Shown: positions 23,788-49,668 of the stretch, in pieces
How the letters are laid out: each line of letters starts with the position of its first letter
Numbering within the stretch: position 1 is the stretch's first letter
Source of the DNA: Xanthobacter sp. YC-JY1
GTDB taxonomy: Bacteria; Pseudomonadota; Alphaproteobacteria; Rhizobiales; Xanthobacteraceae
Direction of reading: 5' to 3'
Length of the DNA: 64,000 nt
NCBI RefSeq assembly: GCF_021730305.1
Contig: NZ_CP032674.1
Span: forward strand, 4,263,001-4,327,000
Made by a program: the position numbers and the translations under genes
The notes under the pieces: generated by a model
The model's input: the letters and a program-made list of their open reading frames with translations, nothing else
Told to the model about the DNA's origin: nothing
The model's database searches: none

Positions 23788-23804
23788 TTGATACATTATA
23801 TCAA
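23788..23804. promoter_or_regulatory. Candidate Zur (zinc uptake regulator) operator
   Basis: TTGATA-CATTA-TATCAA is a perfect 6-bp inverted repeat in an AT-rich island between the divergent DUF2946-like gene and the ZigA-type GTPase gene, 44 bp before the latter's start. Zur boxes are AT-rich palindromes of similar size, and genes of this GTPase class are usual Zur targets. Inference. Confidence 0.45.
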
Positions 23805-23847
23805 TTCTTGCGCGCATCATGTGTGCGCCTGTGTCCGGAGCCTGCCC

Positions 23848-25086
<1,239 letters not shown>

Positions 25087-32029: not shown

Positions 32030-32149
32030 GGTGCGATCATGGCTGGCGCGCCCCACCCACGCCAGCGCGATTGCAAAGCTTCACGTTGGTATCACCACCA
32101 TGCCGGAACAGCGCCGAGGACGCCTGCCGCACGACACCCTCACTGACGC

Positions 32150-32197: not shown

Positions 32198-33679
32198 CTA
32201 CAGCGCGCCGCGCAGGCGGTGGATGCCAGCCTCGATCTGCTCCTCGGCCAGGGAGGCGTAGCCGAGCAGCAGCCAGTCGTTGCTCACGTCGGCGGTGCCG
32301 TATTCATGCCCGCCGCCGTTCTGGATGGTGTAGAGGCCGACATTGCGGCTCTTGGCCAGCGCCGCCATCTGGTGGGCGCGCGGCATGCCCGGCGGCAGCT
32401 TCCAGGCGAGGTGGGTGCCCGCCTCCGTGCCGCGCAGTTCCACCCGCCCGAACGCATCGCGCAGGGCGGAGACCAGCACGTTGCGCCGCTGCTGGTAGCG
32501 CAGCCGCACCCGCCGCAGGTGGCGTACGAAGCCGCCGGTGTGGAGGAATTCGGCCAGCGCCGCCTGTTCCAGCCACACATGCCCGTTGTCGAGCAGCGCC
32601 TTCGCCGCCCCCGCCGCCGGGGCGAGGTGATCGGGGAAGATGGCGAAGCCCGTGCGCAGCCCCGCGCCCAGTGATTTGGAGAAGGTGCCGAGATAGATCA
32701 CGTTCTCCGGGCTCATGGCCTTGAGCGCCGGCAGCAGCATGCCGCCATAGTGGAACTCGCTGTCGTAATCGTCCTCGATCAGATAGGCGCCGGTCCGGTC
32801 GGCCCAGGCGAGCAATTGCTGGCGCCGCTCCAGCGAGAGCACGCCCCCCATGGGGTATTGGTGGGAGGGCATCACATAAGCGAGCTGCGCTGCCACGCCG
32901 GCGAGGCGCGACGTGTCGATGCCGTGCTCATCCACCGGCAGCGGGTGGAGGTGCATGTTGACGCTCTCGAACAGATAGGCGGCGCCCTGGCTGCAGGGAT
33001 TCTCCACCACCACCGCGTCGCCCTCCCGCGCCAGCACCCGCAGCGCGAGGTTGAGGGCGAGCTGGGCGCCGGCGACGATCACCACCTGTTCGGGACGCAC
33101 ATGGATGTCGCGCATCACCGCCACATGGTCGGCGATGGCGGTGCGCAGGGCCATGAGGCCGCAGGGATCGCCATATTCGGTCAGGTTGTGCCCGGCCACG
33201 GCGAGGGCATGCAGCACGAGGCGCCGCCACGTCTTCAGCGGGAAGGCGCGCGGATCGGTGCGCTGGGGCCAGAAATCGATGGGGATGCGGCTGGTGTTGA
33301 GGATGGAATGGGGCCGGCCGGTGAAGGCGGCGGGCGCCAGCTTCTCGGGCGAGCGCCGCTCCGCCGGAGCCGGCGCCTCCGCGCGCACCGACACAGCCGA
33401 GGCGGACGCGCTCACCGACGCGCTCATGGCTGTTTCGGGAACCACCGCCGCCACATAGGTCCCGACCATGGGGCGGGTGACGAGATAGCCCTCGTTGATC
33501 AGCCGCTCATAGGCGAACGTCACCGAATTGCGGGAGACGCCGAGCTGCTGGGCGAGATGGCGGGAGGACGGCACCGCCGCCTCGGCCTTCAGCCGCCCAT
33601 CCAGGATCTGCTGGCGGATCTGCTCGAAGAGCTGTTCCTGAAGGCTCAGAGTGGAGGCGCGGTCGAGGGAGATCAGCAC
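32198..33679 (-). CDS. MocR/PdxR-type regulator (GntR helix fused to aminotransferase-like domain)
   Basis: A 493-residue two-domain regulator. Residues about 8-75 are a GntR winged helix (LQEQLFEQIRQQILDGRLKA, then SRHLAQQLGVSRNSVTFAYE). After a linker rich in Ala, Pro and Ser comes a fold-type I aminotransferase-like domain (about 130-490) with the PLP lysine in IYLGTFSKSLGAGLRTGF. Such proteins sense PLP or PLP adducts of amines such as GABA or taurine. The start is taken as GTG 33679, since the longer open frame crosses the antisense of the cinA-like gene. Divergent from the CinA-like gene, with direct repeats in between that may be its binding sites. Confidence 0.88.
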   Translation of the reverse strand: MLISLDRASTLSLQEQLFEQIRQQILDGRLKAEAAVPSSRHLAQQLGVSRNSVTFAYERLINEGYLVTRPMVGTYVAAVVPETAMSASVSASASAVSVRAEAPAPAERRSPEKLAPAAFTGRPHSILNTSRIPIDFWPQRTDPRAFPLKTWRRLVLHALAVAGHNLTEYGDPCGLMALRTAIADHVAVMRDIHVRPEQVVIVAGAQLALNLALRVLAREGDAVVVENPCSQGAAYLFESVNMHLHPLPVDEHGIDTSRLAGVAAQLAYVMPSHQYPMGGVLSLERRQQLLAWADRTGAYLIEDDYDSEFHYGGMLLPALKAMSPENVIYLGTFSKSLGAGLRTGFAIFPDHLAPAAGAAKALLDNGHVWLEQAALAEFLHTGGFVRHLRRVRLRYQQRRNVLVSALRDAFGRVELRGTEAGTHLAWKLPPGMPRAHQMAALAKSRNVGLYTIQNGGGHEYGTADVSNDWLLLGYASLAEEQIEAGIHRLRGAL

Positions 33680-33725: not shown

Positions 33726-33773
33726 TTGGGGCCAGTTGCGAGAGGGCCAGTCGCTGACGGCGTTTTGGGGCCA
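33726..33773. promoter_or_regulatory. Direct repeats in the MocR upstream region
   Basis: TTGGGGCCA occurs at 33726-33734 and again at 33765-33773, 39 bp apart, with GGGCCAG at 33744-33750 between them. Widely spaced direct repeats upstream of their own gene are typical binding sites for MocR regulators such as GabR. Inference. Confidence 0.4.
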
Positions 33774-33877: not shown

Positions 33878-34402
33878 ATGCCCGACACCGCTTTGCTCCA
33901 GGCGGACGAAACCCTGTTTCCCGCGCCCCTCCTCACACTTGCCGCAGATGTGCTGGCGGCCGCGCGGGCGCGGAACATCCGGCTTGCCGCCGCCGAGACG
34001 GTGACCTCCGGCCTTGTCGCCGCCTGCCTCACCTCGGTGTCCGGCGCCTCGGAGATCTTCGAGCGGGGCTATGTGCTCTACCATTCCTCCGCCAAGGCCA
34101 CCGGCCTCGATGTGCCGGCCGCCGTCTCCGCCGCCCATGGCGCGGTGAGCGCGGAGGTCACGCGCGGCCTCGCCCAGGGCCTGCTCGGCCATTCCGAGGC
34201 GGGCGCCACCGTCGCCATCACCGGCTATGCCGGGCCCGGCGGCGGCAATGCGGTCAATCCCGTGGGCACCATCTTCATCGCGGTGGCCACCCGGGACGGC
34301 GGGCTCGCGGAAGAACGCCACGTCTTCCCCGGCAGCCGGGACAATGTGCGCCTCTGCGCCGTGCAGGCGGCCCTCGCTCTGCTCAAGTCCCAGCTCGCCT
34401 GA
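33878..34402 (+). CDS. CinA C-terminal domain protein, possibly inactive amidohydrolase variant
   Basis: A 174-residue stand-alone CinA_C domain. Its best known activity is nicotinamide mononucleotide deamidation (PncC) in NAD salvage. The fold is recognised by FERGYVLYHSSAKATGLDV (about 57-75) and ITGYAGPGGGNAVNPVGTIFIAV (about 115-137; shown in part), matching AITGIAGPxGG in the family. The usual active-site stretch AESCTGG reads AETVTSG here, so the nucleophilic Ser is replaced by Thr. The Lys in SSAKATGL is kept. A gap of 10 bp to the following COG0523 gene suggests an operon. Confidence 0.82.
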   Translation: MPDTALLQADETLFPAPLLTLAADVLAAARARNIRLAAAETVTSGLVAACLTSVSGASEIFERGYVLYHSSAKATGLDVPAAVSAAHGAVSAEVTRGLAQGLLGHSEAGATVAITGYAGPGGGNAVNPVGTIFIAVATRDGGLAEERHVFPGSRDNVRLCAVQAALALLKSQLA

Positions 34403-34412: not shown

Positions 34413-35372
34413 ATGAGCGACATTCCGGTCGTCCTCGTCACCGGCTTCCTCGGTGCCGGCAAGACGACCCTGCTCAACGATCTCCTGAAGCGCCCGGCCT
34501 TCCGCGACACCGCCGTCATCATCAACGAGGCGGGCGACGCCGGCATCGACCATGCGCTCATCGAGACCGGCAGCGACGAGGTGATGCTGCTCGAGGGCGG
34601 CTGCATCTGCTGCCGCATGAAGGGCTCGCTCAACGCCACGCTCAACGGCCTGTTGCGCCGCCGCGCCATGGACGACTTCGCCTTCCGCCGGGTGGTGGTG
34701 GAAACGAGCGGCCTCGCCGATCCCGCGCCGGTGCTCCATGCGCTGATCGCCGATCCGCTGTTCAACCGGCATTTCTCCATCGCCGGCGTGACCACGGTGG
34801 TGGATGCCGCAAACTTCGCCTCAACCCTCGCCCATCATCCCGAGGGGATGACGCAGGTGGCCCTCGCCGACCGCATCCTCATCAGCAAGGCGGACCTCGC
34901 CACCGCCGACCAGCTCGCCGCCGCCGAGCGCGAGGTGGCGATGCTCAATCCGCTGGCGGAATGCCATGTGCTGCCGGCGTCGGCGCGCGACGGCACGCTG
35001 CTGTGGATCGACCCGCGCGAGACGCCGCGCCCGCTCAGCCGACGCTTCTCGGCCACCGGCGTCGGCCATGCGGTGACCACCGCCTCCCTCGCCTTCCCCG
35101 GCCGCCTCACCCAGGACCAGGTGGACGCCTGGCTCGACCGGGTGAGTGACCTGTTCGGCGCCGCCTTGCTGCGCCTCAAGGGCATCCTGCATCTGGAAGA
35201 GGTGCCGCAGCCGGTGGTGCTGCACGGGGTGCAGGGGCTGGTCTATTCCCCCGGCCTCCTCGCCAACGCGGCGGGGGACGAGAACCGCATGGTGCTCATC
35301 GCCCGCGGCATCGAGGAGCAGGACCTCGCCGACGCGCTGACCCTGCTCGCCGGAATGGCGCGCCCCGAGTGA
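34413..35372 (+). CDS. COG0523 GTPase, short CobW/YjiA-like class
   Basis: A 319-residue G3E GTPase. Walker A is [16 protein letters not shown] (about residues 10-25), the CxCC metal motif is GGCICCRMKGSL (about 63-74), switch-like ETSGLADPAPVLHAL is at about 94-108, and the base-recognition motif is SKAD in LISKADLAT. The C-terminal domain (about 210-319) has RLKGILHLEEVPQPVVLHGVQ. Its metal and client are unknown; family members serve cobalt, nickel, zinc or iron enzymes. Since a cobalt-type nitrile hydratase is encoded 28 kb away, a link is possible but not supported by position. It differs in length and C terminus from the ZigA-type paralogue at 23848. Confidence 0.88.
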   Translation: MSDIPVVLVTGFLGAGKTTLLNDLLKRPAFRDTAVIINEAGDAGIDHALIETGSDEVMLLEGGCICCRMKGSLNATLNGLLRRRAMDDFAFRRVVVETSGLADPAPVLHALIADPLFNRHFSIAGVTTVVDAANFASTLAHHPEGMTQVALADRILISKADLATADQLAAAEREVAMLNPLAECHVLPASARDGTLLWIDPRETPRPLSRRFSATGVGHAVTTASLAFPGRLTQDQVDAWLDRVSDLFGAALLRLKGILHLEEVPQPVVLHGVQGLVYSPGLLANAAGDENRMVLIARGIEEQDLADALTLLAGMARPE

Positions 35373-35436: not shown

Positions 35437-35931
35437 TTACCCGCCGTTGGCCTGGACGCACTGGTTGACGCGGGCCCACGCTTCCTTGGCGCGCTTGCCG
35501 AGATTGACCGTCCCCACATCCTCGGAATCCGGCAGCGAGAACTGGTAGGCGCCGGCGGCCACGATATGGTCGATGGCCACGAATGGCATGGTGAACCACA
35601 TGCGCGTGCCATCTGCACCGCCCGGCACCGTCCATTCCAGCATGCCGCGCGGCTTGCCGGGGACGTTGACGATGGTGCCCTTGAAGTCGCCCTTGCGGCC
35701 CTCGGCCTTGACGCTCATGTAGACGTGGCCATCGGTGCGCCGGGCAATGATGTCGTCACGGTTGCCGACCTTGCGCGTGGCGCGGCAATTGATGATGCCG
35801 GATTTCTCCGTGGTGGCGGTGAAGGTCCAGCCATCGAAGCCCGCTCCATAGGGCTTGACCTGAGCCTGCGCCCCCGAGCTGGTGGCGAGCGTGGCGGCGA
35901 CGGCGAGCGCGGCGAGAATACCCGTCTTCAT
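35437..35931 (-). CDS. Exported protein of unknown function
   Basis: A 164-residue protein with a clear Sec signal peptide (LAALAVAATLATSSGAQAQ, cleavage after about residue 24). The mature part is rich in beta strands with two cysteines (IINCRATRK and NQCVQANGG) that could form a disulfide. Some likeness to the IalB/invasion-associated locus B style of periplasmic protein is seen (short, beta-rich, paired cysteines), but it is not firm. It converges on the COG0523 gene; an imperfect GC-rich hairpin lies in the 64-bp gap. Confidence 0.75.
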   Translation of the reverse strand: MKTGILAALAVAATLATSSGAQAQVKPYGAGFDGWTFTATTEKSGIINCRATRKVGNRDDIIARRTDGHVYMSVKAEGRKGDFKGTIVNVPGKPRGMLEWTVPGGADGTRMWFTMPFVAIDHIVAAGAYQFSLPDSEDVGTVNLGKRAKEAWARVNQCVQANGG

Positions 35932-36221
35932 GTGCGGCCTTCATAAGGTGAAAGGTGGCGGGACGGCCTGATGGCACTGGATCTTGCCGAGCCCGAACCA
36001 TGGTCAAGCTCCAGCAGGGCCATGTTTATGAAACGCCGGCTGAATGCAAGTTGAACGAAGCGTGGCCGAATTGCGCGAAAAGCCGCCCGCGCACCCTCGC
36101 CCCGCCCGCAACTGGCCCCATGGGCCGGACTGGCTCCATAAGCCTGTAACAAGCCGGCGCTACCGCGTGTCCCTCCCCGCCCCTAGCGTTCGTGGACAGG
36201 ATGGAAACGAGCGAGACCGCA

Positions 36222-36971
36222 ATGGCCAGCACTTTTTCGGCGAAGACCTTTTCCGGCACCGTGGGCATCGTCCCCGCCCTCGACATCGAGACGCAGGAGA
36301 AGTTCGATGCGGTGGTGAAGGCGACGAGCGGCGTGCCCGGCGTCGCCGGCTACAAGCTCGGCCTCACCAGCGTGCTGCGCCATGGCCTGAAAGAGTCCAT
36401 GCGGCGGGTGCGCGACCTCACCGACCTGCCCATCCTCTACGACCACCAGAAGGCCGGCCCGGACATGCCGGACATGGCGAAGAAGTTCACCGCCCTCTGC
36501 GCCGAGGCCGAGGTGGACGGGCTCATCCTTTTCCCCGTTGCCGGCCCCACTGCGGTGGACGGCTTCGTCGGCGAGGCGCTGAAGGCCGGCATCGCGCCGG
36601 TGGTGGGCGGCGAGATCCCGGTCGCCGACTATGGCGTCTCCGGCGGCGGCTACCTCCTCGACAATGCGCTGGACCTCATCCTGGAGCGCTCGGTCCAGGG
36701 CGGCGCCGATCATTTCGTCCTGCCCGCGCACGATGCCGCGAAGGTCACGCGCTGGTCGCGCTGGATCGCGGCGAACGTGAAGAACCCGCTGGTATTCCTC
36801 ACCGGCTTCGGCTCGCTGGGCGGCACCATCGAGGGGGCGTTCGCCGCCGCCGAAGCCTGCCCGCGCCGCTTCGCCATCGTCGGCCGCCTCATCACCGAGG
36901 CGAAGGACCCGGCCGCCGCCGCCACCGCGCTCTATGAGAAGATGCAGGCGCTGGAGGCAACGGCGCCATGA
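36222..36971 (+). CDS. Orotidine-5'-phosphate decarboxylase-like (HUMPS superfamily) protein
   Basis: A 249-residue TIM-barrel protein of the OMP decarboxylase family, which removes CO2 from orotidine 5'-phosphate. Landmarks are GIVPALDIETQEKFDAVV (about 15-32), GYKLGLTSVLRHGLKESM (about 43-60) and the phosphate-binding end VGRLITEAKDPAAAATAL. The catalytic DxKxxD of true PyrF reads YDHQKAGPD here, keeping Asp, Lys and Asp with different spacing. I chose ATG 36222, which has GAGCGAGA just upstream, over 36192 (GTG) and 36201. It heads a same-strand run and overlaps the aldehyde dehydrogenase start by 4 bases. Not in a pyrimidine-synthesis context, so recruitment to another pathway is likely. 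Confidence 0.75.
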   Translation: MASTFSAKTFSGTVGIVPALDIETQEKFDAVVKATSGVPGVAGYKLGLTSVLRHGLKESMRRVRDLTDLPILYDHQKAGPDMPDMAKKFTALCAEAEVDGLILFPVAGPTAVDGFVGEALKAGIAPVVGGEIPVADYGVSGGGYLLDNALDLILERSVQGGADHFVLPAHDAAKVTRWSRWIAANVKNPLVFLTGFGSLGGTIEGAFAAAEACPRRFAIVGRLITEAKDPAAAATALYEKMQALEATAP

Positions 36972-38425
36972 ACGCCGTGCTGCCGTCCCTCCACCGCGAG
37001 CCCTTCGTGGGCGGACGCTTCGTGCCCGCCATGGGCGGCGGCGTCGAGGCGCTGGTCGATCCCTGGACGGGCACGCCCCTCGCCGAGGTCGCGCTGGCGG
37101 GTCCGGTGGAGGTGGAGGCGGCGATCCGCATGGCGCGCCATGCCTTCGATGCCGGCGACTGGCCCCATCTTCCGCCCGTGGACCGCGGCGCGGTGCTCCA
37201 CCGCATCGCGGCCGGGATCACGGCACGGCAGGACAAGTTTGCGCAGATCGAGGCGGTGAACGCCGGCAAGCCCATCTCCGGCGCCCTGCGCGAGGTGGAA
37301 GGGGCGATCCGCGTCTTCACTTATTATGCCGGGGCCATGGACAAGGTGTTCGGCGACACCATCCCCCTCGGCAAGGATCTTCTGGATTTCACCCTGCGCG
37401 AGCCCCTGGGCGTGGTGGCGCAGATCGTGCCGTGGAACTTCCCGCTGCTCGGCGCCTCTTGGAAGCTCGCGCCCGCGCTTGCCGCCGGCTGCGCCGCCAT
37501 CCTGAAGCCCGCGCCTCTGACGCCGCTCACCGCCCTGCTCCTTGCCGAAGTGTGCCGCGAGGCGGGCGTGCCCGACGGCTTCCTCTCCATGCTGCCCGGC
37601 GGCGCGGACGTGGGGCGGCGGTTGGCGGAGGACCCGCGCATCGACGGCATTTCGTTCACCGGCTCCACCGCCGTGGGGTCGGAAGTGATGCGGCTGGCCT
37701 CCGCTTCCATCAAGCGCGTGGCGCTGGAACTCGGCGGCAAGAACGCCGCTTTGGTCTTCGCCGATGCCGACATGGAGAAGGCAGCAGCGAGCGCGGTGGC
37801 CTCGGGATTCGGCAATGCCGGCCAGTCCTGCTCCGCCCGCTCGCGCCTTCTGGTGGAGCGCGGCGCGCTGGAGCCCTTCGCCCGTGCCTTCACCGCTGCG
37901 GCCGCCAAGCTGAAAACCGGCAAGGCGCTGGACCCCGCGACCAATCTCGGCCCGCTCATCTCCGCCTCTCACCGCGATGCCGTGGACCGTACCGTGGCGC
38001 TGGCGCGGGAAGCCGGCGCGGACCTCGTGAGCGGCGGGGTGATGCCCGAGGGCGACGGGTTCTTCTACCCGCCCACCATCCTCTCGGGCGTGGGGCCGGA
38101 CAATCCCGCCTTCAGCCGGGAGATCTTTGGCCCGGTCTGCTCGCTCACGCCGTTCGACAGCGAGGCCGAGGCCATCGCGCTGGCCAATGACAGCGACTAT
38201 GGTCTCAATGGCTCCGTCTGGTGCCGCGACATCGGCCGGGCGCTCCGGGTGGCGCGGGCCATGCGCACCGGCATGGTGGCGGTGAACGGCCTGCCGAGCG
38301 CCTCGAAGACCAGCGTGTTCGCGCCTTTCGGCGGCTACAAGCGCTCCGGCATCGGCCGTGAGCTTGGCCTACAGGCGCTGGATTTCTACTGCGAGATCAA
38401 GAACGTGGTGGTGGACCTCACCTAG
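36968..38425 (+). CDS. NAD(P)-dependent aldehyde dehydrogenase
   Basis: A 485-residue class I-type aldehyde dehydrogenase. Cofactor-binding IVPWNFPLLGASWKLAPALA is at about 152-171, SFTGSTAVG at about 229-237, the general-base Glu in LELGGKNAALVFADAD (about 254-269), and the catalytic Cys in GNAGQSCSARSR (about 280-291). The C terminus PFGGYKRSGIGRELG is intact. It oxidises an aldehyde to the acid, with substrate unknown. The start overlaps the stop of the OMP-decarboxylase-like gene (ATGA), so the two are co-translated. Confidence 0.9.
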   Translation: MNAVLPSLHREPFVGGRFVPAMGGGVEALVDPWTGTPLAEVALAGPVEVEAAIRMARHAFDAGDWPHLPPVDRGAVLHRIAAGITARQDKFAQIEAVNAGKPISGALREVEGAIRVFTYYAGAMDKVFGDTIPLGKDLLDFTLREPLGVVAQIVPWNFPLLGASWKLAPALAAGCAAILKPAPLTPLTALLLAEVCREAGVPDGFLSMLPGGADVGRRLAEDPRIDGISFTGSTAVGSEVMRLASASIKRVALELGGKNAALVFADADMEKAAASAVASGFGNAGQSCSARSRLLVERGALEPFARAFTAAAAKLKTGKALDPATNLGPLISASHRDAVDRTVALAREAGADLVSGGVMPEGDGFFYPPTILSGVGPDNPAFSREIFGPVCSLTPFDSEAEAIALANDSDYGLNGSVWCRDIGRALRVARAMRTGMVAVNGLPSASKTSVFAPFGGYKRSGIGRELGLQALDFYCEIKNVVVDLT

Positions 38426-38544
38426 CGGAAGACAAAAGGAGCCACCGTCGGCGGGCTGGACCCATCGTTGCGTCGGCGGCTGGCTCTCAATGCCCGGCAA
38501 ATGGCGTTGCTAACTTTTTGAACAGAGCGAAAGGCAAGGCGCGT

Positions 38545-39801
38545 ATGGCCATCGCAATCGTCGGCGGAACCATGATCGACGGCACGGGGGCGGACCCGGT
38601 GCCGAATGCGGTCGTGGTGATCGAGGAAGGGCGCATCGTCGCCGCCGGCCCCGAGAGCCGGGTGAGCGTGCCAGCGGGCGCCCAGAAACTCGACGCGGCG
38701 GGGCGCACCGTGCTGCCCGGCTTCATCGACACCCATGTCCACGGCACCTACCGCGCCCGCGACATGCGCCAGCACCTCTTGAACACGCCCACCTACAACG
38801 TGCTGAAATCCATCGAGGTGTTCCGCGAGACCATCGCCTGCGGCATCACCACCGCGCGCGACATGGGCGGTGCCGATGCCGGCTTCCGGCAGGCCATCGA
38901 GGAAGGCATCATCGACGGGCCGCGCCTGTTCATCTCGCTGGGCATGGTCTCGCAGACCGGCGGCCATGGCGACTACTGGCTCCCCGCCGGCATGCGCATC
39001 CAGAAGCGCGCCTGGCTCCCCCACACGGTGGCGGACGGGGTGGAAGAGATCCGCCGCCTGGTGCGCGAGCTTCTCATGCGCGGCGCCGACTTCATCAAGA
39101 TCTGCGCCACCGGCGGCATCACCTCGGTGACCGACAGCTGGGACGAGCCGCAATTCACCATTGAGGAGATTTCCACCGCCGTCTCCGAGGCCGCCGCCAA
39201 GGGCAAGCGCGTGGCCGTACATGCCGAGGGCCTCGCCGGCATCAAGAATGCGGTGAATGCCGGCATCCACTCGCTGGAGCACGGCTGGTTCATGGACGAG
39301 GAGAGCGTGGACCGCATGATCGCGGGCGGCATCTGGTGGGTGCCGACGCTGGCCCTGGTGCCGCTCTCCATCGAACATCGCCGCAAAAACACCGCTTGGG
39401 CCAGTCACCAATTGGGCCAGGAGGACGTGAAGGACGCGCAGATCTATTCGCTGATGCAGACGCAGATCCCCCTCTGGAAGGAGGCGGTGAAGCGCGGCGT
39501 GAAGGTGGCCATGGGCACCGACCAGTCGCACCGCCTGCTGGTGGGCGAGAACATGGCCGAACTCGCCTTCATGGTGGACTGGCTCGGCATGTCGCCCATG
39601 GAGGTGATCGTCGCCTCCACCACCAAGGCGGCGGAATGCATCGAGCAGCCGAACCTCGGCGCGCTGAAGGCGGGCTGCATGGCCGACGTGCTGGTGCTGG
39701 ACGGCGATCCGCTCGCCGACATCCGCATCCTGGAGCAGCGCGACCGCCTGCATCTGGTGATGAAGGGCGGAAAGGCCTTCACGAACCGGCTCGACGGCTG
39801 A
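38545..39801 (+). CDS. Metal-dependent amidohydrolase
   Basis: A 418-residue amidohydrolase-superfamily TIM barrel. The first metal motif HVH is in GFIDTHVHGTYRA (about residues 56-68). The likely carboxylated or bridging Lys is in GADFIKICATGGITS (about 174-188). Later metal histidines are in VAVHAEGLAGI (about 219-229) and HSLEHGWFMDEES (about 239-251), and the catalytic Asp is in AMGTDQSHR (about 321-329). The subgroup includes prolidase-like and cyclic-amide hydrolases, and the substrate is unknown. ATG 38545 was chosen since IAIVGGTMIDGTG begins the usual beta domain. 119 bp separate it from the aldehyde dehydrogenase gene. Confidence 0.87.
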   Translation: MAIAIVGGTMIDGTGADPVPNAVVVIEEGRIVAAGPESRVSVPAGAQKLDAAGRTVLPGFIDTHVHGTYRARDMRQHLLNTPTYNVLKSIEVFRETIACGITTARDMGGADAGFRQAIEEGIIDGPRLFISLGMVSQTGGHGDYWLPAGMRIQKRAWLPHTVADGVEEIRRLVRELLMRGADFIKICATGGITSVTDSWDEPQFTIEEISTAVSEAAAKGKRVAVHAEGLAGIKNAVNAGIHSLEHGWFMDEESVDRMIAGGIWWVPTLALVPLSIEHRRKNTAWASHQLGQEDVKDAQIYSLMQTQIPLWKEAVKRGVKVAMGTDQSHRLLVGENMAELAFMVDWLGMSPMEVIVASTTKAAECIEQPNLGALKAGCMADVLVLDGDPLADIRILEQRDRLHLVMKGGKAFTNRLDG

Positions 39802-39805
39802 GCGC

Positions 39806-39850
39806 TGTCGATAAAATGATTTTGTCAATTGATATAGTAGAAAACAACTG
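39806..39850 (+). promoter_or_regulatory. AT-rich probable promoter before the NadC-like gene
   Basis: A 45-base strongly AT-rich island in an otherwise GC-rich run. It contains TATAGT (39833-39838) as a possible -10 and the palindrome TCAATTGA just before it. It suggests that the NadC-like gene and those after it can be transcribed separately from the upstream three genes. Confidence 0.4.
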
Positions 39851-39898
39851 CTAGGCAGCATCACAGAGCCGGGCCGGGAGCGCCCCAGGAGCCGTTTA

Positions 39899-40789
39899 AT
39901 GAAGTTGAACCGCTTTATGATCCGGCCTCTCGTCGAGCTGGGCCTTCGCGAGGAGTTAAGCTCCGGCGATACAACCGGAGGCTTTCTCGTCGGCGACGAT
40001 CCGGTTCAGACGGCCAATATCTACGCCAAGGCGAACGGGATCGTCTGCGGCATGCTGTTCGCCGACGAGACCATCCGTTCCATCGAGCCCGATGCGCGCA
40101 TCGAATGGCTGGTGGAGGACGGCGCCACGGTGGAGCCCGGCACCGTGCTGATGCGGGTGCAGGCGCGCGCCTCCACCTTCTTCGTCATCGAGCGCTCGGC
40201 CCTCGACTGGCTGCAGCAGATGAGCGGCATCGCCACCAAGACGCGCCGCTATGCCGAGCTGGTGAAGCACACCGGCGTACGCATCACCGACACCCGCAAG
40301 GGCTGGCCGGGCCTGCGCATGGTGCAGAAATATGCCGTGCGTGTGGGCGGCGCCCACAACCACATCTTCAACCTCGCCAATTGCGTGCTGGTGAAGGACA
40401 ACCACATCAAGATCGCCGGCTCCATCACCGAGGCGGTGAAGATCCTGCGGGCGAGCGCGCAGCACACCTTCAAGTTCGAGGTGGAGTGCGAGAGCCTGGA
40501 GATGGTTCAGGAGGCGCTGGATGCCGGCGTCGAGATCATCATGTTCGACAACATGGACCTCGACGAAATGCGCGAGGGCCTGAAGCTGACCAAGGGCCGC
40601 GCCATGACCGAGGCGTCCGGCGGCATCAACGAGACCACCATCGTACCCATCGCGGAGCTTGGTGTGGACGTGATCTCCATCGGCGACCTCACCCACACGG
40701 TGAAGGCCCTCGACATCAGCCTCGATGTGCGGGACATCAAGCCGAGCGCTCAGCGGACCATCGACCGCCTCAAGCAGCTCTCGAACTGA
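39899..40789 (+). CDS. NadC-like type II phosphoribosyltransferase with altered substrate pocket
   Basis: A 296-residue protein of the quinolinate phosphoribosyltransferase family, which joins quinolinate to PRPP and releases CO2. Landmarks are SSGDTT (21-26), ERSALDWLQQMSGIAT (99-113 region), RITDTRKGWPGLRMVQKYAV (128-147), GGAHNHIFNL (150-159) and LVKDNHIKIAG (164-174). True NadC reads DTRKTTPGLR and GGGxNHR. Here TT is GW, and the Arg of NHR that binds a quinolinate carboxylate is Ile. PRPP-binding residues (Arg/Lys of DTRK, Lys of KDNH) are kept. AGGAG precedes the ATG. Away from nadA/nadB, it probably uses a different heterocyclic acid. ModD is another NadC-like family to consider. Confidence 0.83.
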   Translation: MKLNRFMIRPLVELGLREELSSGDTTGGFLVGDDPVQTANIYAKANGIVCGMLFADETIRSIEPDARIEWLVEDGATVEPGTVLMRVQARASTFFVIERSALDWLQQMSGIATKTRRYAELVKHTGVRITDTRKGWPGLRMVQKYAVRVGGAHNHIFNLANCVLVKDNHIKIAGSITEAVKILRASAQHTFKFEVECESLEMVQEALDAGVEIIMFDNMDLDEMREGLKLTKGRAMTEASGGINETTIVPIAELGVDVISIGDLTHTVKALDISLDVRDIKPSAQRTIDRLKQLSN

Positions 40790-40802
40790 ACACAGGCGGG
40801 CC

Positions 40803-41570
40803 ATGCGCGGGGACATGCCCTTTCGTCTGAGGCCGGGAACGGAGACCTTCGTCTTCGACCTCGACGATACCTTGTACCCGCGCTCCGCCGGCCTGCACGG
40901 CCAGATGCTCGCCCGCGTCTGGCTGTTCATCCAGGAATTGACCGGCTGCACGCCGGAAGAGGCGGCGGCGCTGCACGCGCACTATTACGAGACCTACGGC
41001 ACCTCCCTCGTCGGGCTCCAGCGCCACCACGCGGTGAAGCCGCAGGATTTCCTCGCCTTCGTCCACGAGATCGACCTCTCCGTTCTCGCCGAAAACGCGG
41101 AGCTGCGCCTCGCGCTGGAAGCCCTGCCCGGCCGGCGCCTCGTCTTCACCAACGGCTCGCGCGCCCATGCCGAGCGGGTGCTGGAGCGCCTCGGCATATC
41201 CGACCTGTTCGAGGGCGTGTGCGACATCGCCGCCTGCGACTATATCGGCAAGCCCGAGCGCGCCGCCTACGACACGCTCGTCGGCCGGCACGGCGTCGCG
41301 CCGGACCGCGCCATCATGTTTGACGACCGCGCAGTGAACCTCGCCGTGCCCCACGCGCTGGGCATGCAGACGGTGCTGATCGGCGATCACGGCCTTCCCG
41401 AGACGCCGGACGCCGCGCACGTCCATTTCCATTCCCTCGCGCTAGCGCCCGTGCTCGCCCAGATCGAGCCGCGCACGCCCCCGATACCGACGCCAAAGGC
41501 CGCACAAAGCCTTCATAAGGGCCCGCAAAATAAGGGCTCATCAACGACCGACCTTCCTCAGGAGCCATGA
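40803..41570 (+). CDS. HAD hydrolase, pyrimidine 5'-nucleotidase-like
   Basis: A 255-residue HAD-superfamily phosphatase. Motif I is FVFDLDDTLYP (about 16-26, DxDxT), motif II is LVFTNGS (about 115-121), motif III Lys is in YIGKPERAAYD, and motif IV is IMFDDRAVNLAVPHALGM. The FDLDDTLYP and TNGS forms match the SDT1-like pyrimidine 5'-nucleotidase group, which dephosphorylates nucleoside monophosphates. The last 30 residues are low in complexity and probably unstructured. The gene starts 13 bp after the NadC-like gene, and its stop overlaps the binding-protein ATG. ATG 40815 is an alternative start. Confidence 0.85.
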   Translation: MRGDMPFRLRPGTETFVFDLDDTLYPRSAGLHGQMLARVWLFIQELTGCTPEEAAALHAHYYETYGTSLVGLQRHHAVKPQDFLAFVHEIDLSVLAENAELRLALEALPGRRLVFTNGSRAHAERVLERLGISDLFEGVCDIAACDYIGKPERAAYDTLVGRHGVAPDRAIMFDDRAVNLAVPHALGMQTVLIGDHGLPETPDAAHVHFHSLALAPVLAQIEPRTPPIPTPKAAQSLHKGPQNKGSSTTDLPQEP

Positions 41571-42700
41571 TGATGCACGCCCGTCTCACGCGCCTACTCA
41601 TCGCCGCCACTGCCGTCTCGCTCGCCGCCGCGCCCGCCTTCGCGGCCGACGTGAAGCTCGGCATCGTGCAGTCCACCTCGGGCGGCTCGGCCGCCCTCTA
41701 CGGCACCATGCAGAAGAACGGCGCGGAGCTGGCTGCCGCCGAGATCAACGCCTCCGGCAAGCTCGGCGACCTCAAGCTGGTGCCCGTCCACCAGGACGAT
41801 GCCGGCGATCGCGGCCAGACCGTCAACATCTTCCAGCGGCTCATCAACCAGGACAAGGTGACGGTCATCTTCGGGCCGACGCTGACCACCTCGGCCTTCG
41901 CCGCGGACCCCATCGCCAACGCCGCCAAGGTGCCGGTGATCGCCTCGTCCAACACCGCCCCCGGCGTGCCGGCCATCGGCGAATACATCTTCCGCACCAG
42001 CGCGCCCGAGGCGGCGGTGTTCCCCGGCGTGCTCGCCTATGCGGTGAAGCGCTACCAGCCGAAGACCGCGGCGCAGATCTACGGCATCGACGACGTGCTG
42101 ATGAAGGCCGCCTACGGCGTGCACAAGGCCGCCCTCGACAAGGCCGGCATCAAGGTGGTGGCCACCGAGACCTTCCAGAAGGGCGACGTGGACTATTCCG
42201 CCCAGCTCACCAAGATCAAGGCAGCCAACCCCGACATCATCGTCGTCGGCGGCCTCGCGGAAGAGACTGCCAACATCGTGCGGCAGGCCCGCCAGCTCGG
42301 CATTCCGCAGTCCACCGTCTTCCTCGGCGCCAACGCCGCCATCTCCACCAAGCTCAACGACCTCGCCGGTCCCGCCGCGCAGGGCTTCCTCGTGGGCTCG
42401 GGCTGGTTCATCGACTTCGACACGCCCGCCAACAAGGCGTTCGTGGAGGCCTACAAGGCCAAGTACGGCAACGCCCCGGACACCTTCGCCGCCCAGGCCC
42501 ACGCCGCCGTGACCATCTTCGCCGATGCGGTGAAGCGCGCGGGTGGCGTCTCCGATCCGGCGAAGCTGCGCGCCGCCATCGCCGACACCAAGGACCTCCA
42601 GACCGTGCTCGGCCCCTTCTCCTTCGACAAGGACCGCGAGCCGGTGCTGGTCGCCAAGGTGCTGGAGCTGAAGGACGGCAAGTTCCAGCTCGCCCAGTGA
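41567..42700 (+). CDS. Branched-chain amino acid-type ABC substrate-binding protein
   Basis: A 377-residue periplasmic binding protein of the LivJ/LivK family. The signal peptide is LLIAATAVSLAAAPAFAA (cleavage near residue 26). The mature part begins DVKLGIVQSTSGGSAALYG and contains FGPTLTTSAFAADPIANAAK and GSGWFIDFDTPANKAF. Three consecutive ATGs occur at 41567, 41570 and 41573; AGGAG spacing favours the second or third. First gene of a five-gene importer. The family binds amino acids, amides, aromatic acids and other small organics, so valine or leucine should not be assumed. Confidence 0.9.
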   Translation: MMMHARLTRLLIAATAVSLAAAPAFAADVKLGIVQSTSGGSAALYGTMQKNGAELAAAEINASGKLGDLKLVPVHQDDAGDRGQTVNIFQRLINQDKVTVIFGPTLTTSAFAADPIANAAKVPVIASSNTAPGVPAIGEYIFRTSAPEAAVFPGVLAYAVKRYQPKTAAQIYGIDDVLMKAAYGVHKAALDKAGIKVVATETFQKGDVDYSAQLTKIKAANPDIIVVGGLAEETANIVRQARQLGIPQSTVFLGANAAISTKLNDLAGPAAQGFLVGSGWFIDFDTPANKAFVEAYKAKYGNAPDTFAAQAHAAVTIFADAVKRAGGVSDPAKLRAAIADTKDLQTVLGPFSFDKDREPVLVAKVLELKDGKFQLAQ

Positions 42701-42728
42701 TCCACCGGCCCGTCCGGGGGATCAGCGC

Positions 42729-43613
42729 ATGACCACCTTCCTGCAGCAGGTCGTGAACGGGCTTTCGCTCGGCTCGATCTATGCCGTCTTCGCCATCGGC
42801 TGCACGCTGATCTTCGGCGTGCTGAACATCGTGAACCTGGCGCAGGGTGCCTTCTTCATGGTGGGCGCCTATCTGGGGCTCGAGATCGCCCTCCTCGGCC
42901 TGCCGCTGCCTCTGGCGCTCCTCGTGGCGCTGGTGGGCGGCGGCGTGCTTGGCATGGCGTCCGAGCTTCTCGTCTTCCGCGTGCTCCGGCTGCGCGGCGG
43001 GCACAAATGGATGGGCCTGGTCGCCAGCCTCGCCCTCGCCCGCCTGCTGGTGGGCGTCGCGCAGGAGGTGTTCGGCACCGCCGTCCACGGCTATCCGCCC
43101 AACCCCTTCACCGCCATCGTGTGGGAGATCGGCGGCGTGCGCGTGCAGCTGCTGCAGGTCATCGTGGTGATCACCGCGGTGATCCTCATGGGCATCCTCG
43201 GCTTCACCCTGCAGAAGACCTCGGTGGGCCGCGCCATCCGCACGGTCGCCTTCTCGGAGGACGTGGCCCGCATCGTCGGCGTGGAGGTGGGGCGCACCAT
43301 CCTCATCACCTTCTTCATCGCCGGCGCGCTGGCGGGGGCGGCCGGCGTGCTGCTGGGCCTCCTCTTCAACGTGGTCTCTCCCTTCATGGGCGAGCACATG
43401 CTGGTGAAGGGCCTCACCGTGATGATCCTCGGCGGCCTCGGCAACATCCCCGGCGCGGTGGCCGGCGGCTTCCTGCTGGGTCTCGTGGAGGTGTTCTCCG
43501 TCGCCTATGTCTCGTCGGCCTTCCGGGATGCCATCGGCTTCGGGCTCATCTTCCTGATCCTGCTGGTGAAGCCCACGGGCCTCTTCTCCGGCTTCGAGGA
43601 GCGGCGCGCATGA
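42729..43613 (+). CDS. Liv-type ABC transporter permease LivH
   Basis: A 294-residue inner-membrane permease with about eight helices. It starts FLQQVVNGLSLGSIYAVFAI and has GVLNIVNLAQGAFFMVGAYL (about 31-50), both typical of LivH. The conserved GRAIRTVAFSEDVARIVGVE is at about 170-189, and GLTVMILGGLGNIPGAVAGG is at about 222-241. It starts 28 bp after the binding-protein gene and overlaps the LivM start by 4 bases. Confidence 0.9.
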   Translation: MTTFLQQVVNGLSLGSIYAVFAIGCTLIFGVLNIVNLAQGAFFMVGAYLGLEIALLGLPLPLALLVALVGGGVLGMASELLVFRVLRLRGGHKWMGLVASLALARLLVGVAQEVFGTAVHGYPPNPFTAIVWEIGGVRVQLLQVIVVITAVILMGILGFTLQKTSVGRAIRTVAFSEDVARIVGVEVGRTILITFFIAGALAGAAGVLLGLLFNVVSPFMGEHMLVKGLTVMILGGLGNIPGAVAGGFLLGLVEVFSVAYVSSAFRDAIGFGLIFLILLVKPTGLFSGFEERRA

Positions 43614-44491
43614 TGGCCGCCCTCGACGGATTTCTCGCCAGCTACGGCAACCTCGTGAACTTGTGCCTGCTGAACACCCTGCTCGCCTACGGCGTGTGGC
43701 TGGCGCTGGCGGCCAACATGTTCACGCTGGGCACCGGCGGCTTCATGGCGGTGGGCGCCTATTGCAGCGTCTATTTCACCATGCAGCTCGGCGCGCCCTT
43801 CGCCGTGGCGGTGGTGGCGGGCGGGCTGCTGGCGGCGGCGGTCGCGCTCGTCATCGGCGCGCCGGTGCTGCGGCTGAGGGGCGATTACTTCATGCTCGCC
43901 ACCTTCGCCTTCACCGAGGTGGTGCGCGTGATCGCGCTCAACTGGGACGCCGTCACCGGCGGCGCCATCGGCATCTACGGCATCCCGCGCTACACCGAGA
44001 CATGGCAGCTGGTGCTGCTGGTTCTCATCGCGCTCTATTTCGTCTTCGCCCTGCGGCGCTCCTATTTCGGCCGGTCCATCGCGGCCATCCGGCAGGACGA
44101 CGTGATGAGCGAGGCCATGGGCGTCAACGTGTTCGGCCAGCGCCTGTCGCTGTTCGTCGCCTCCGGCTTCGTCAGCGGCGGCGTGGGGGGCCTTGCGGCG
44201 CATCTCAACTTCTTCGTCGGCCCCTCGGACTTCGGCCTGCTGCGCAGCGTGGATGCCCTCGCCTACCCCATCCTCGGCGGCGTGAACGCGCTCTTGGGGC
44301 CGATGGTGGGCGCCATCTTCACCACCCTGCTGCCGGAGCTGCTGCGCTTCTCCAGCCAGTGGCGGGAGATCCTGATGGGCCTCCTCATCCTCGCGGTGGT
44401 GCTGTTCCTGCCCGGCGGGGCGATGTCGCTCCTGCGCTGGCGGCCGCGCAAGGCGGCGGCCCGCCGGCCCTCCACCCAGGGAGCCGAATGA
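43610..44491 (+). CDS. Liv-type ABC transporter permease LivM
   Basis: A 293-residue inner-membrane permease with about eight helices. Landmarks are FTLGTGGFMAVGAYCSVYFT (about 38-57), LRLRGDYFMLATFAFTEVVR (about 86-105), RRSYFGRSIAAIRQDDVMSE (about 145-164, ATPase-contact loop) and YPILGGVNALLGPMVGAIF. Two tandem ATGs at 43610 and 43613 are possible starts. It pairs with LivH as the channel. Confidence 0.9.
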   Translation: MMAALDGFLASYGNLVNLCLLNTLLAYGVWLALAANMFTLGTGGFMAVGAYCSVYFTMQLGAPFAVAVVAGGLLAAAVALVIGAPVLRLRGDYFMLATFAFTEVVRVIALNWDAVTGGAIGIYGIPRYTETWQLVLLVLIALYFVFALRRSYFGRSIAAIRQDDVMSEAMGVNVFGQRLSLFVASGFVSGGVGGLAAHLNFFVGPSDFGLLRSVDALAYPILGGVNALLGPMVGAIFTTLLPELLRFSSQWREILMGLLILAVVLFLPGGAMSLLRWRPRKAAARRPSTQGAE

Positions 44492-45261
44492 TGGCGGCGG
44501 CGGAACTCGAACTCTGGCAAGTGGCCAAGCGCTTCCAAGGCGTGGTGGCGGTGGACAGCGTGTCGCTGACCGCCGCCGCCGGAAAGGTGACGGCCCTCAT
44601 CGGCCCGAACGGCTCCGGCAAGACCACCACCATGAACATGATCACCGGCCTCTATCCCACCGACGCCGGCCACATCCGCCTCGATGGCGTGGACATCGCC
44701 CGCCTCGCCCCGCACAAGGTGGCGGCGCTGGGCGTTGCCCGCACCTTCCAGAACATCCGCCTGCTGGCGAGCGAGACGACGCTTGACAACGTGCTCCTCG
44801 GCGCCCACCGACACCAGTCCGCCAGCCTGCTCGACGTGCTGCTCGGCCTGCCGGCGGTGAAGCGCAGCGAGACGCGGGAGAAGGCGCGCTGCGAGGCGCT
44901 GCTCGATCTCGTGGGCATCGCCGCTCTGCGCGACGTGGCCGTGGGTGGCCTCTCCTACGGCGACCGGCGCCGGGTGGAGATCGCCCGCGCCCTCGCCACC
45001 CAGCCGCGCCTGCTGCTGCTGGACGAGCCGGCGGCGGGCATGAACTTCGCCGAGAAGCGCGCGCTGGCCGACCTCGTGCTCGCCATCCGCGACATGGGGA
45101 TCACCGTGCTCCTCATCGAGCACGACATCGAGTTCGTGGCCCGGGTGAGCGACCATATCGTGGTGCTCAATTTCGGCCGCGAGATCGCCGCCGGCACACC
45201 GGAGGAGGTGCGCCGCATGCCGAGCGTGATCGAGGCCTATCTGGGGACCGAGGATGCTTGA
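44488..45261 (+). CDS. Liv-type ABC transporter ATPase LivG
   Basis: A 257-residue ATPase. Walker A is GPNGSGKTTTMNMITGLYPT, the Q-loop region is VARTFQNIRLLASETTL, the signature is LSYGDRRRVEIARAL, Walker B is LLLLDEPAAGMN, and the H-loop is LIEHDIEFV. These are the standard LivG forms. The start overlaps the LivM stop (ATGATG at 44488-44493). Works with LivF on the cytoplasmic side. Confidence 0.92.
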   Translation: MMAAAELELWQVAKRFQGVVAVDSVSLTAAAGKVTALIGPNGSGKTTTMNMITGLYPTDAGHIRLDGVDIARLAPHKVAALGVARTFQNIRLLASETTLDNVLLGAHRHQSASLLDVLLGLPAVKRSETREKARCEALLDLVGIAALRDVAVGGLSYGDRRRVEIARALATQPRLLLLDEPAAGMNFAEKRALADLVLAIRDMGITVLLIEHDIEFVARVSDHIVVLNFGREIAAGTPEEVRRMPSVIEAYLGTEDA

Positions 45262-45982
45262 GCTCGTCAAGGTCACCTCCGGCTACGGGTCCGTCGCGGC
45301 CGTCGAGGACATCGACATCACCGTTCCCGCCGGCGCCTGCGTCTGCCTCATCGGCGCCAATGGTGCGGGCAAGACGACGACGCTGCTCACCATCTGCGGC
45401 CTCGTGCGCGCCTTCTCCGGCACCGTGCGCATCGAGGGGCGGGACATGACCGCCCGCCCCGCAGACAGGATCGTCCGCGCCGGCGTGTCGCTGGTGCCCG
45501 AGGGACGGCGGGTGGTGGCCTCCATGTCGGTGGAGGACAATCTGAAGGTCGGCGCCTATGTGCGCGGCGGCGATCCGGCCATCGCCGACGACATGGAGCT
45601 GATCTACACCCGCTTTCCCCGCCTCAAGGAGCGCCGCTTCCAATATGCCGGCTCCCTCTCCGGCGGCGAGCAGCAGATGCTGGCCATGGGCCGGGCGCTG
45701 ATGGCGCGGCCCAAGCTGCTGCTGCTGGACGAGCCATCCATGGGCCTTGCCCCCCATGTGGTGAACGACATCTTCGCCACCATCGCCGACATCAACGCCA
45801 AGGGCACGACCGTGCTGCTGGTGGAGCAGAACGCCCGCAAGGCACTTTCCGTCGCCAGCTACGGCTATGTGATGGAGCACGGACGCATCCTGTTCGCCGA
45901 CACCGCCGAGGCGCTGGCCCGCGACCCGCGCGTCATCGCCGCCTATCTCGGCATGCGGGCGGCGGAGACGGCTTCAGCCTGA
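45254..45982 (+). CDS. Liv-type ABC transporter ATPase LivF
   Basis: A 242-residue ATPase. Walker A is GANGAGKTTTLLTICGLV, LVPEGRRVVASMSVEDNL is the diagnostic LivF stretch, the signature is LSGGEQQMLAMGRAL, and Walker B is LLLLDEPSMGLAP. It overlaps the LivG gene by 8 bp and is the last gene of the 36.2-46.0 kb run. The 48-bp gap to the converging SulP gene has no clear terminator. Confidence 0.92.
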   Translation: MLELVKVTSGYGSVAAVEDIDITVPAGACVCLIGANGAGKTTTLLTICGLVRAFSGTVRIEGRDMTARPADRIVRAGVSLVPEGRRVVASMSVEDNLKVGAYVRGGDPAIADDMELIYTRFPRLKERRFQYAGSLSGGEQQMLAMGRALMARPKLLLLDEPSMGLAPHVVNDIFATIADINAKGTTVLLVEQNARKALSVASYGYVMEHGRILFADTAEALARDPRVIAAYLGMRAAETASA

Positions 45983-48432: not shown

Positions 48433-49668
48433 TTACTTCACCAGCGGGCAGTTGCCGGCCGCGAGGGGGCGGAAGGCCTTGTCGGCGGGAACGGTGGCGA
48501 TGAGCTTGTAGAAGTCGTACGGCCCCTTGGATTCCGCCGGGCTCTTCACCTCGAACAGGTGCATGTCGTGGATGGCGCGGCCGTCCGGGCGCACCGCCCC
48601 CTTGCCGAACAGCGGATCGTCGGTGGGAATGGCCTTCATGGCCTCCACCACCTTGGCGCCGTCCTTGGCGCTACCCACCTTCTCCACCGCCTTCAGATAG
48701 TGCAGCAGCCCGGCATAGACGCCGGCATGGACCATGTTGGGATAACGCCCGCCATTGGCCTCGGCGAAACGCTTGGCGAAGGAGCGGGTCTGGTCGTTCA
48801 GGTCCCAGTAGAAGGCCTCCGACAGGAACAGGCCCTGCGCCGTCTCCAGCCCCAGCGCGCTGATGTCGTTGAGCACCATGAGCATGGCGACGAGCTTCTG
48901 CCCGGCCTTGACGATGCCGAACTCGGACGCCTGCTTCACCGCGTTGATGGTATCCGCCCCGGCGCTGCCGAGGCCGATCACCTTGGCGCCCGACGCCTGG
49001 CCCTGGAGCAGGAAGGAAGACAGGTCGGAGGTGCCGAGCGGGTGCCTGACGGTGCCGAGGATCTTGCCGCCGGCCGCCTTGATGGCCTCGCCCGCGTCGC
49101 GCTCCAGCGCATGACCGAAGGCATAGTCCACCGAGATGAAGTACCAGGTGTTGCCACCCGCCTTGGTCACGGCGGTGCCGACCGTGTTGGCCTGGGCCCA
49201 GGTGTCGTAGGTCCAGTGGACGGTGTTGGGCGAGCAATCCTTGCCGGTGAGGTCGGAGGTGCCACCGCCGGAGATGATCGCCACCTTGTTCTTCTGCCTG
49301 GCGATGCCGCTGACACCCAGCGCCACCGCGGAATTCGGCACGTCCAGCACCGCGTCCACGCCGTCCGTGTCGAACCACTGGCGGGTGACGTTCACGCCGA
49401 TGTCAGCCTTGTTCTGGTGGTCGGCGGCGACCAGCTCGATGGGCATGCCGGCGACCTTGCCGCCGAAATCGGCGATGGCCATCTTCGCCGCCACCACCGA
49501 TCCGGCACCGGCGAAGTCCGCCTGCACGCCGGCCTGGTCGTTGAGCACGCCCACCTTAACGCTCTCGGCGCTCGCGCCGCCGGGGAAGGCCGCGCAGACG
49601 AGGGCGGCCAGCGCGGTCGAGGCCAAAGCGGACCTCAGTGTCCCGGACCTTGCAGTCTTCCTGGGCAT
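48433..49668 (-). CDS. Liv-type ABC substrate-binding protein, orphan
   Basis: A 411-residue periplasmic binding protein of the LivK-like family. The signal peptide is STALAALVCAAFPGGASA (cleavage near residue 34). The mature part begins SVKVGVLNDQAGVQADFAG; landmarks are VAADHQNKADIGVNVTRQW and YDTWAQANTVGTAV. It is the third gene of the LacI-controlled minus-strand operon, but no permease or ATPase gene lies with it. It may use the Liv permease encoded at 42.7-46.0 kb or another one. The ligand is probably the substrate or precursor of the adjacent dehydratase. Confidence 0.88.
   Translation of the reverse strand: MPRKTARSGTLRSALASTALAALVCAAFPGGASAESVKVGVLNDQAGVQADFAGAGSVVAAKMAIADFGGKVAGMPIELVAADHQNKADIGVNVTRQWFDTDGVDAVLDVPNSAVALGVSGIARQKNKVAIISGGGTSDLTGKDCSPNTVHWTYDTWAQANTVGTAVTKAGGNTWYFISVDYAFGHALERDAGEAIKAAGGKILGTVRHPLGTSDLSSFLLQGQASGAKVIGLGSAGADTINAVKQASEFGIVKAGQKLVAMLMVLNDISALGLETAQGLFLSEAFYWDLNDQTRSFAKRFAEANGGRYPNMVHAGVYAGLLHYLKAVEKVGSAKDGAKVVEAMKAIPTDDPLFGKGAVRPDGRAIHDMHLFEVKSPAESKGPYDFYKLIATVPADKAFRPLAAGNCPLVK

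Follow-up and report, generated by a model that had tools for sequence, protein, structure and literature searches.

A conserved gene set around NadCL and PyrFL

The DNA analysed in this work, referred to as the window, is the 64 kb stretch at positions 4263001-4327000 of the 5.39 Mb genome of Xanthobacter sp. YC-JY1. The window carries a gene cluster that encodes a relative of quinolinate phosphoribosyltransferase (NadC-like, NadCL) and a relative of orotidine 5'-monophosphate (OMP) decarboxylase (PyrF-like, PyrFL) together with other enzymes, a regulator and an importer. A first-pass annotation of the window had described a run of ten genes at 36222-45982, and these genes, their order and their location on the plus strand were confirmed with Pfam, NCBIfam and the open frames. 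Adjacent genes of the run overlap or sit within about 120 bases of each other.

PyrFL (36222-36971) belongs to the OMPdecase/HUMPS family (Pfam OMPdecase 37.6 bits, cut-off 27). It is followed by an aldehyde dehydrogenase (36968-38425; Pfam Aldedh 533 bits), an amidohydrolase referred to as AHY (38545-39801; Pfam Amidohydro_1), NadCL (39899-40789; Pfam QRPTase N and C domains; NCBIfam nadC 299 bits, cut-off 198.4), and a haloacid dehalogenase (HAD) phosphatase of the pyrimidine 5'-nucleotidase family TIGR01993 (40803-41570, start possibly at 40815; 192 bits, cut-off 142.9). The full Liv-type importer that had been proposed for the run was recovered at 41567-45982. It consists of a LivK-type substrate-binding protein (41567-42700; Pfam Peripla_BP_6), a LivH-type permease (42729-43613; Pfam BPD_transp_2), a LivM-type permease that was assigned by position from an open frame only and has a homologue at the equivalent place in the other seven Liv loci (43613-44491), a LivG-type ATPase (44488-45261; Pfam ABC_tran and BCA_ABC_TP_C), and a LivF-type ATPase (45254-45982; Pfam ABC_tran).

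The extent given earlier was too narrow, as comparison of the genomes that carry the cluster shows that the conserved unit reaches about 4 kb further left. The additional genes are a divergent MocR-type regulator with GntR DNA-binding and aminotransferase domains (32198-33673, minus strand, start codon approximate; Pfam GntR and Aminotran_1_2), a nucleotide-amidase-like protein with the PncC/CinA C-terminal domain, referred to as PncC (33878-34402, plus strand; Pfam CinA; NCBIfam PncC_domain, TIGR00199, 117.3 bits, domain cut-off 68.9), and a CobW-family GTPase that is a putative metal chaperone (34413-35372, plus strand). The NCBIfam CobW-type models match this GTPase with scores that are all below their cut-offs, and Pfam cobW was detected in its homologues from Tistlia and Acuticoccus. 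The acyl-CoA ligase that adjoins MocR (30497-32056) was not included in the unit; its only close match is in the X. aminoxidans locus (L004), and a 30% identical relative lies at the far end of another locus (L025).

PyrFL is rare. It was found in 9 of the 296 genomes sampled from the family, 2 of 397 from the order and 1 of 398 from the phylum, with the window genome counted each time. At a threshold of E 1e-75, one of 385 genomes sampled from the class and one of 10 from the Acuticoccus family had NadCL, and neither sample held a genome with NadCL and without PyrFL. A scan of an 84,980-species collection, limited in its reach to close relatives, yielded five named loci, those of X. aminoxidans, a Xanthobacteraceae metagenome-assembled genome (MAG), Rhodopseudomonas sp. 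B29, Acuticoccus mangrovi, and Tistlia consotensis.

The carrier set comprises 11 distinct genomes after duplicates were merged, and every one was found through PyrFL. The carriers are few, and one family accounts for most of them: nine belong to the family of the window genome and one more to its order, and Tistlia lies outside that order. Co-occurrence of PyrFL and NadCL had been suggested as a check on the cluster, and NadCL is present in all 11 genomes, in the same cluster as PyrFL in ten and on a separate contig in Acuticoccus. MocR, PncC, CobW, and AHY each occur in 10 of the 11 carriers and were not seen in the remaining one, a variant whose contig is only 11.5 kb long. HAD homologues occur in ten carriers as well, with TIGR01993 scores of 175 (L005, L022), 185 (L006) and 169 bits (L044). 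The Liv set is present in eight carriers, and the Tistlia cluster contains internal genes of a tripartite ATP-independent periplasmic (TRAP) transporter.

Three other Xanthobacter genomes, the Xanthobacteraceae MAG, Rhodopseudomonas sp. B29 and two further genomes of the family exhibit the identical gene order, and the cluster is not a chance arrangement because this order recurs. The cluster proteins of the window share 92-99.7% identity with their X. aminoxidans counterparts. The tested flanking genes of the window recur, apart from distant homologues, only in close Xanthobacter relatives. In the all-against-all comparison of the loci, the only further shared gene among the matches listed is a phosphoribosyl pyrophosphate (PRPP) synthetase gene that adjoins the clusters of the MAG and of Rhodopseudomonas (L005 and L006). 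Both of these PRPP synthetases are 68% identical to the product of the only prs gene of the window genome. Plasmid carriage of the cluster was rejected, as PyrFL gave no match in 72,556 plasmid records; the matches of AHY (in 210 records) and of NadCL (in 295 records) are all below 60% identity.

The variant was identified on an 11,485-base contig (L044) of a draft genome from the family (G1373; 84% complete, 6% contaminated). Its genes lie on one strand and encode a PsuG/indigoidine-synthase-A-like protein (Pfam 296 bits), a lipase-like hydrolase, NadCL, PyrFL, a HisI-like protein, an aldehyde dehydrogenase, and a TIGR01993 HAD phosphatase. The HisI-like and PsuG-like genes replace AHY, PncC, and CobW, and the core common to the variant and the main type consists of NadCL, PyrFL, aldehyde dehydrogenase, and HAD phosphatase. 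The variant PyrFL is 53% identical to that of the window, and the variant NadCL is broken across two frames. The HisI-like protein scored 62.9 bits with PRA-CH and 85.9 bits with NCBIfam HisI, which is under the cut-off of 126. It lies in an operon with PyrFL and differs from HisI of histidine biosynthesis in this score; no other his protein was found among the seven open reading frames (ORFs) of L044 that were scanned, and no HisI-like protein was seen in the main-type clusters.

Several neighbouring ORFs were also recorded. A small ORF between CobW and PyrFL (35437-35931, minus strand) has a start that resembles a signal peptide by eye; of the other loci compared, two from Xanthobacter, L004 and L040, are the only ones to have it. 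A second CobW-family gene with a full CobW_C domain lies outside the cluster (23707-25086, plus strand). Two N,N-dimethylformamidase-beta-like ORFs adjoin the Rhodopseudomonas cluster (L006:192-2072 and L006:2467-4788, plus strand).

NadCL, PyrFL and PncC carry changed motifs and lie apart from nadA, nadC and pyrF

The window genome has an ordinary nadC at 4576014, which is 1.7 kb from nadA, and an ordinary pyrF at 5015005. A ModD-like gene and an ordinary CinA gene are also present elsewhere in this genome. The possibility that NadCL and PyrFL are simply ordinary NadC and PyrF, which the first-pass annotation had named as a finding that would refute its reading, is ruled out by these separate copies and by the residues described below.

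Ten carriers were searched for nadA and for a second nadC. Both genes were found in five of them (G000, G1165, G1285, G1290, and G1096), where the second nadC lies within 2 kb of nadA in four and on another contig in G1096. Two carriers (G226 and G1373) have a second nadC and no nadA that could be found, and neither nadA nor another nadC was found in three (G1095, G1097, and G1204). For the carriers without either gene, completeness is 96% for G1204 and 99% for the MAG (as G1202), and none is given for Tistlia. NadCL is thus not tied to quinolinate synthesis at the genome level, as five of the ten carriers are without nadA. The occurrence of NadCL in genomes without nadA, and beside NadC in others, is hard to reconcile with a role in de novo synthesis of nicotinamide adenine dinucleotide (NAD).

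In the enzyme of M. tuberculosis, Arg162 and Arg139 bind the C3 carboxylate of quinolinate, while its C2 carboxylate is contacted by Arg105', by Lys172 and by the main chain of residue 139, and alanine mutants of these residues are described as having undetectable activity (PMC4065032). The residue numbering was mapped through the primer sequences of that paper. Nine NadCL rows and four ordinary NadC rows were aligned, and the L004 and L040 copies, which are at least 98% identical to that of the window, were left out. NadCL is 42% identical to the NadC of its own genome and resembles NadC in the N and C QRPTase domains, in scores above the nadC cut-off (except for the split variant copy), and in the equivalents of Arg105', Arg139, and Lys172, which are retained in 9/9 rows, and of His161. 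It differs from NadC in the loss of Arg162 in 9/9 rows (Ile in 8/8 main-type rows and Met in the variant, compared with Arg in 4/4 ordinary NadC), in a Gly for the Thr after Arg139-Lys and an Asp for the Asn of ERxxLN, both in 9/9 rows, and in having no nadA neighbour. The Lys that follows Arg139, the Glu in the E-V-E stretch and the Asp-Asn in FDNM are retained in the eight full-length NadCL rows, and we take these positions to be ones that bind ribose and phosphate in the porcine enzyme. The tree of the 13 rows separates NadCL from the four ordinary NadC with full support, and the branch of the variant row is very long. The pattern of residues kept and lost suggests that the substrate has a carboxylate next to the ring nitrogen but not at C3.

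The best matches of PyrFL among solved structures are OMP decarboxylases (4lui, E 1.2e-6, profile against PDB). PyrFL is of the same fold family as PyrF and, by alignment, has its Lys of the first strand and its Gly/Arg phosphate motifs, whose roles are assumed here. DxKxxD is the catalytic motif of OMP decarboxylase. PyrFL differs from PyrF in that DxKxxD is replaced by DHQKAGPDMPD, which is invariant in 9/9 PyrFL rows and aligns with two extra residues, in that its scores are far under the PyrF equivalog cut-offs (34.2 of 208 bits and 23.3 of 92.3 bits), and in that it coexists with an ordinary PyrF.

The Ser of ESCTGG is catalytic in the PncC family. The other CinA of the window genome has ESCTGG, whereas PncC has ETVT(S/A)G, with Thr for Ser, in the 5/5 homologues aligned of the ten known. 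The invariance of the changed PyrFL, NadCL and PncC motifs across genera speaks for a changed function and not for decay. The AHY motifs HVH, IKICATGG, HAEG, EHG, and GTD occur in 5/5 aligned sequences, and the best PDB matches of AHY are amide- and peptide-cleaving amidohydrolases and their relatives.

A divergent MocR-type regulator and its candidate operator

The earlier statement that no dedicated regulator is adjacent was wrong. The MocR gene starts 2.5 kb upstream of PyrFL and is divergent from the PncC gene in nine loci, including that of the window; in Tistlia it lies apart from PncC. A 30-base candidate operator, GGKCCAGT-N14-TGGRRCCA, is located in the MocR-PncC intergenic region of 9/9 loci that are so arranged (33744-33773 in the window). 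Seven of these loci served to derive the pattern and the other two are near-identical to the window, so the count is descriptive. A slightly stricter pattern gave one match in the window at one mismatch allowed, where 0.02 were expected, and the window holds no further match with fewer than three mismatches. With three mismatches allowed, the window has seven matches (4.11 expected), Tistlia three (1.19), the second Acuticoccus locus one (0.96), and L044 none (0.41); the exact site is absent from the last three loci. Weak matches just before AHY (L008 at 16884 and L022 at 8953) and in the gap between aldehyde dehydrogenase and AHY of the window (38457) are not significant.

A second candidate operator upstream of PyrFL (36131-36160, minus strand, 16.6 bits) is suggestive only. 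This site is the second-best match in the 64 kb; in 60 simulated windows the top score was 9.8 on average and 17.9 at most. It was also found in L040 and L042, was faint in L004 and L006, and was outside the best three matches in L005, L041, L043, and L007.

MocR regulators that have been characterised control genes of pyridoxal phosphate, gamma-aminobutyric acid (GABA), taurine, and ectoine, and one of them, TauR, is described as binding repeats of the consensus CTGGACYTAA (PMC5320631), which resembles the reverse strand of the candidate operator. The cluster has a MocR, an importer and an aldehyde dehydrogenase in common with the taurine, GABA, and ectoine regulons of that paper, and TauR2 regulons contain COG523 genes as the cluster contains CobW; the main text of the paper contains no nadC, pyrF, cinA, phosphoribosyl, amidohydrolase, or Xanthobacter (PMC5320631). 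The Tistlia cluster contains a gene for a methyl-accepting chemotaxis protein, possibly a substrate sensor, between MocR and PyrFL (L008:7252-9873, plus strand). COG523 is taken here to be the CobW family.

Proposed function and alternative readings

The best-supported conclusion, which we consider very probable, is that the cluster acts on a phosphoribosylated intermediate and does so outside the de novo synthesis of NAD and pyrimidines. This part of the first-pass interpretation stood, although its claim about the regulator did not, and it is strengthened by the PncC domain, by the HisI-like and PsuG-like proteins of the variant, and by the PRPP synthetase genes beside two clusters. We propose, with a probability of roughly 0.58, that the cluster serves MocR-controlled catabolism of an imported N-heteroaromatic acid while the acid is attached to ribose 5-phosphate.

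We infer the substrate, direction and chemistry of the pathway as follows. The Liv importer, or the TRAP transporter in Tistlia, would bring in a carboxylate, which NadCL would couple to PRPP at the ring nitrogen; the NadCL step is the most secure of those proposed. PyrFL would decarboxylate the ribotide next to the N-ribosyl group, as OMP decarboxylase does. The later steps form a working model. Hydrolysis of the N-substituted, electrophilic ring would fall to AHY, perhaps with the help of CobW, or in the variant to the HisI-like protein, and aldehyde dehydrogenase would oxidise the aldehyde that arises from ring hydrolysis. HisI (phosphoribosyl-AMP cyclohydrolase) opens a six-membered ring with phosphoribosyl on its nitrogen, and hydrolytic opening of the ribotide ring is proposed for AHY and the HisI-like protein because of this precedent. 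PncC and the HAD phosphatase, or the lipase-like hydrolase, PsuG and HAD in the variant, would then free the fragments and ribose or ribose phosphate, which PRPP synthetase can recycle.

A more specific form of this proposal is possible though doubtful: an acid of the pyridine-2-carboxylate type, with picolinate and dipicolinate as the leading candidates, would become an N-ribosyl pyridinium nucleotide, would thereby be open to decarboxylation and oxygen-free hydrolytic ring opening, and would return its ribose phosphate to PRPP. This would be a heterocycle counterpart of the activation of benzoate with CoA. Our estimate for this form was lowered slightly because the residues that NadCL keeps also contact the 3-carboxyl in the porcine enzyme.

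Several points weigh against the proposed catabolism. The equivalents of Arg139, His161, and Lys172 contact the 3-carboxyl too in the porcine enzyme with product (PMC3633916), and the mutant of the human equivalent of Arg162 reportedly keeps 20% activity (PMC4726147), so the argument from the C3 carboxylate is not airtight. As PyrFL has DHQKAGPD where OMP decarboxylase has DxKxxD, its decarboxylation step is not assured. The main cluster showed no nucleosidase, which leaves release of the base or ribose unexplained, and the PRPP synthetases beside the two clusters may be housekeeping copies. The Tistlia locus has no HAD homologue of the window type, and a nearby HAD does not match TIGR01993. 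The variant rests on one incomplete, contaminated draft genome with a split NadCL, and its PsuG-like protein matches no NCBIfam model at 1e-6. Characterised MocR regulators control genes for pyridoxal phosphate, GABA, taurine, and ectoine (PMC5320631), and the proposed pathway explains no amine.

In a biosynthetic reading, an imported precursor would be built into a modified nucleoside or a nucleotide-like cofactor and the HAD phosphatase would yield the free nucleoside, which would agree with a main cluster in which no nucleosidase was seen. PsuG/IndA and HAD relatives are also found in pathways that make pigments and C-nucleosides. We consider this reading unlikely, as the full importer, aldehyde dehydrogenase and MocR would be more typical of utilisation, and no further enzyme, apart from the PRPP synthetase of two loci, recurs among the matches listed for the compared loci.

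Salvage of NAD or another cofactor, in which NadCL would ribosylate an imported pyridine carboxylate or amide and PncC would deamidate it, is very unlikely. NadCL does exceed the nadC cut-off and keeps in part the residues that contact the 3-carboxyl in the porcine enzyme (PMC3633916), and an extra source of NAD would help the three carriers without nadA or another nadC. The family of PncC is that of the nicotinamide mononucleotide amidases. However, five of the ten carriers have nadA plus another nadC, the residue Arg162 whose alanine mutant has no detectable activity in M. tuberculosis (PMC4065032) is replaced in all NadCL rows, and salvage gives aldehyde dehydrogenase, AHY, and PyrFL no evident role.

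The altered motifs of PyrFL and PncC and the amide- and peptide-cleaving relatives of AHY would also suit repurposed folds, with NadCL, PyrFL, and PncC no longer handling nucleotides and the cluster performing ordinary aromatic-amide hydrolysis and aldehyde oxidation. This is equally improbable given the Lys, Glu, and Asp-Asn of NadCL and the Lys and phosphate motifs of PyrFL, if their roles are as assumed above, and given that the operon also encodes a 5'-nucleotidase, joined in the variant by the HisI-like and PsuG-like proteins. Orotate would be the simplest substrate for PyrFL and a pyrimidine nucleotidase and was judged less likely, as an ordinary PyrF is encoded elsewhere in the genome and the motif of PyrFL is altered.

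The carbon-phosphorus (C-P) lyase pathway (phn) is described as catabolising a substrate attached to ribose phosphate and ending in PRPP (PMC9947105). The proposed catabolism is similar to it only in this respect, as the enzymes and substrate class differ. Membership of the cluster in that system was rejected, as no phn gene exceeds its cut-off: the phn models gave solely sub-cut-off matches, of PhnM with AHY (30.1 of 565 bits, as weak as for many amidohydrolases) and of phosphonate-transporter ATPases with LivG and LivF. No report joining these genes was found in the open-access literature, a limited test with subscription papers outside its reach.

The usual attack on aromatic N-heterocycles is by oxygenases or molybdenum hydroxylases. 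The proposed catabolism, if true, would bring the logic of nucleotide synthesis into biodegradation as a new principle, in which ribose phosphate enables loss of an otherwise inert carboxylate and ring hydrolysis. It would also give functions to genes named nadC and pyrF by similarity, and would be a warning that catabolic enzymes may go unnoticed under such names. Further clusters of this kind can be sought with the gene set and the operator as direct markers.

Two other features lie to the right of the cluster in the window. A second Liv-type binding protein (48433-49668, minus strand) is 53% identical to the binding protein beside the variant cluster (L044:6767-8050, minus strand), and nitrile hydratase alpha and beta-N-type genes, identified with Pfam, are located at the right end (62976-63954, minus strand).

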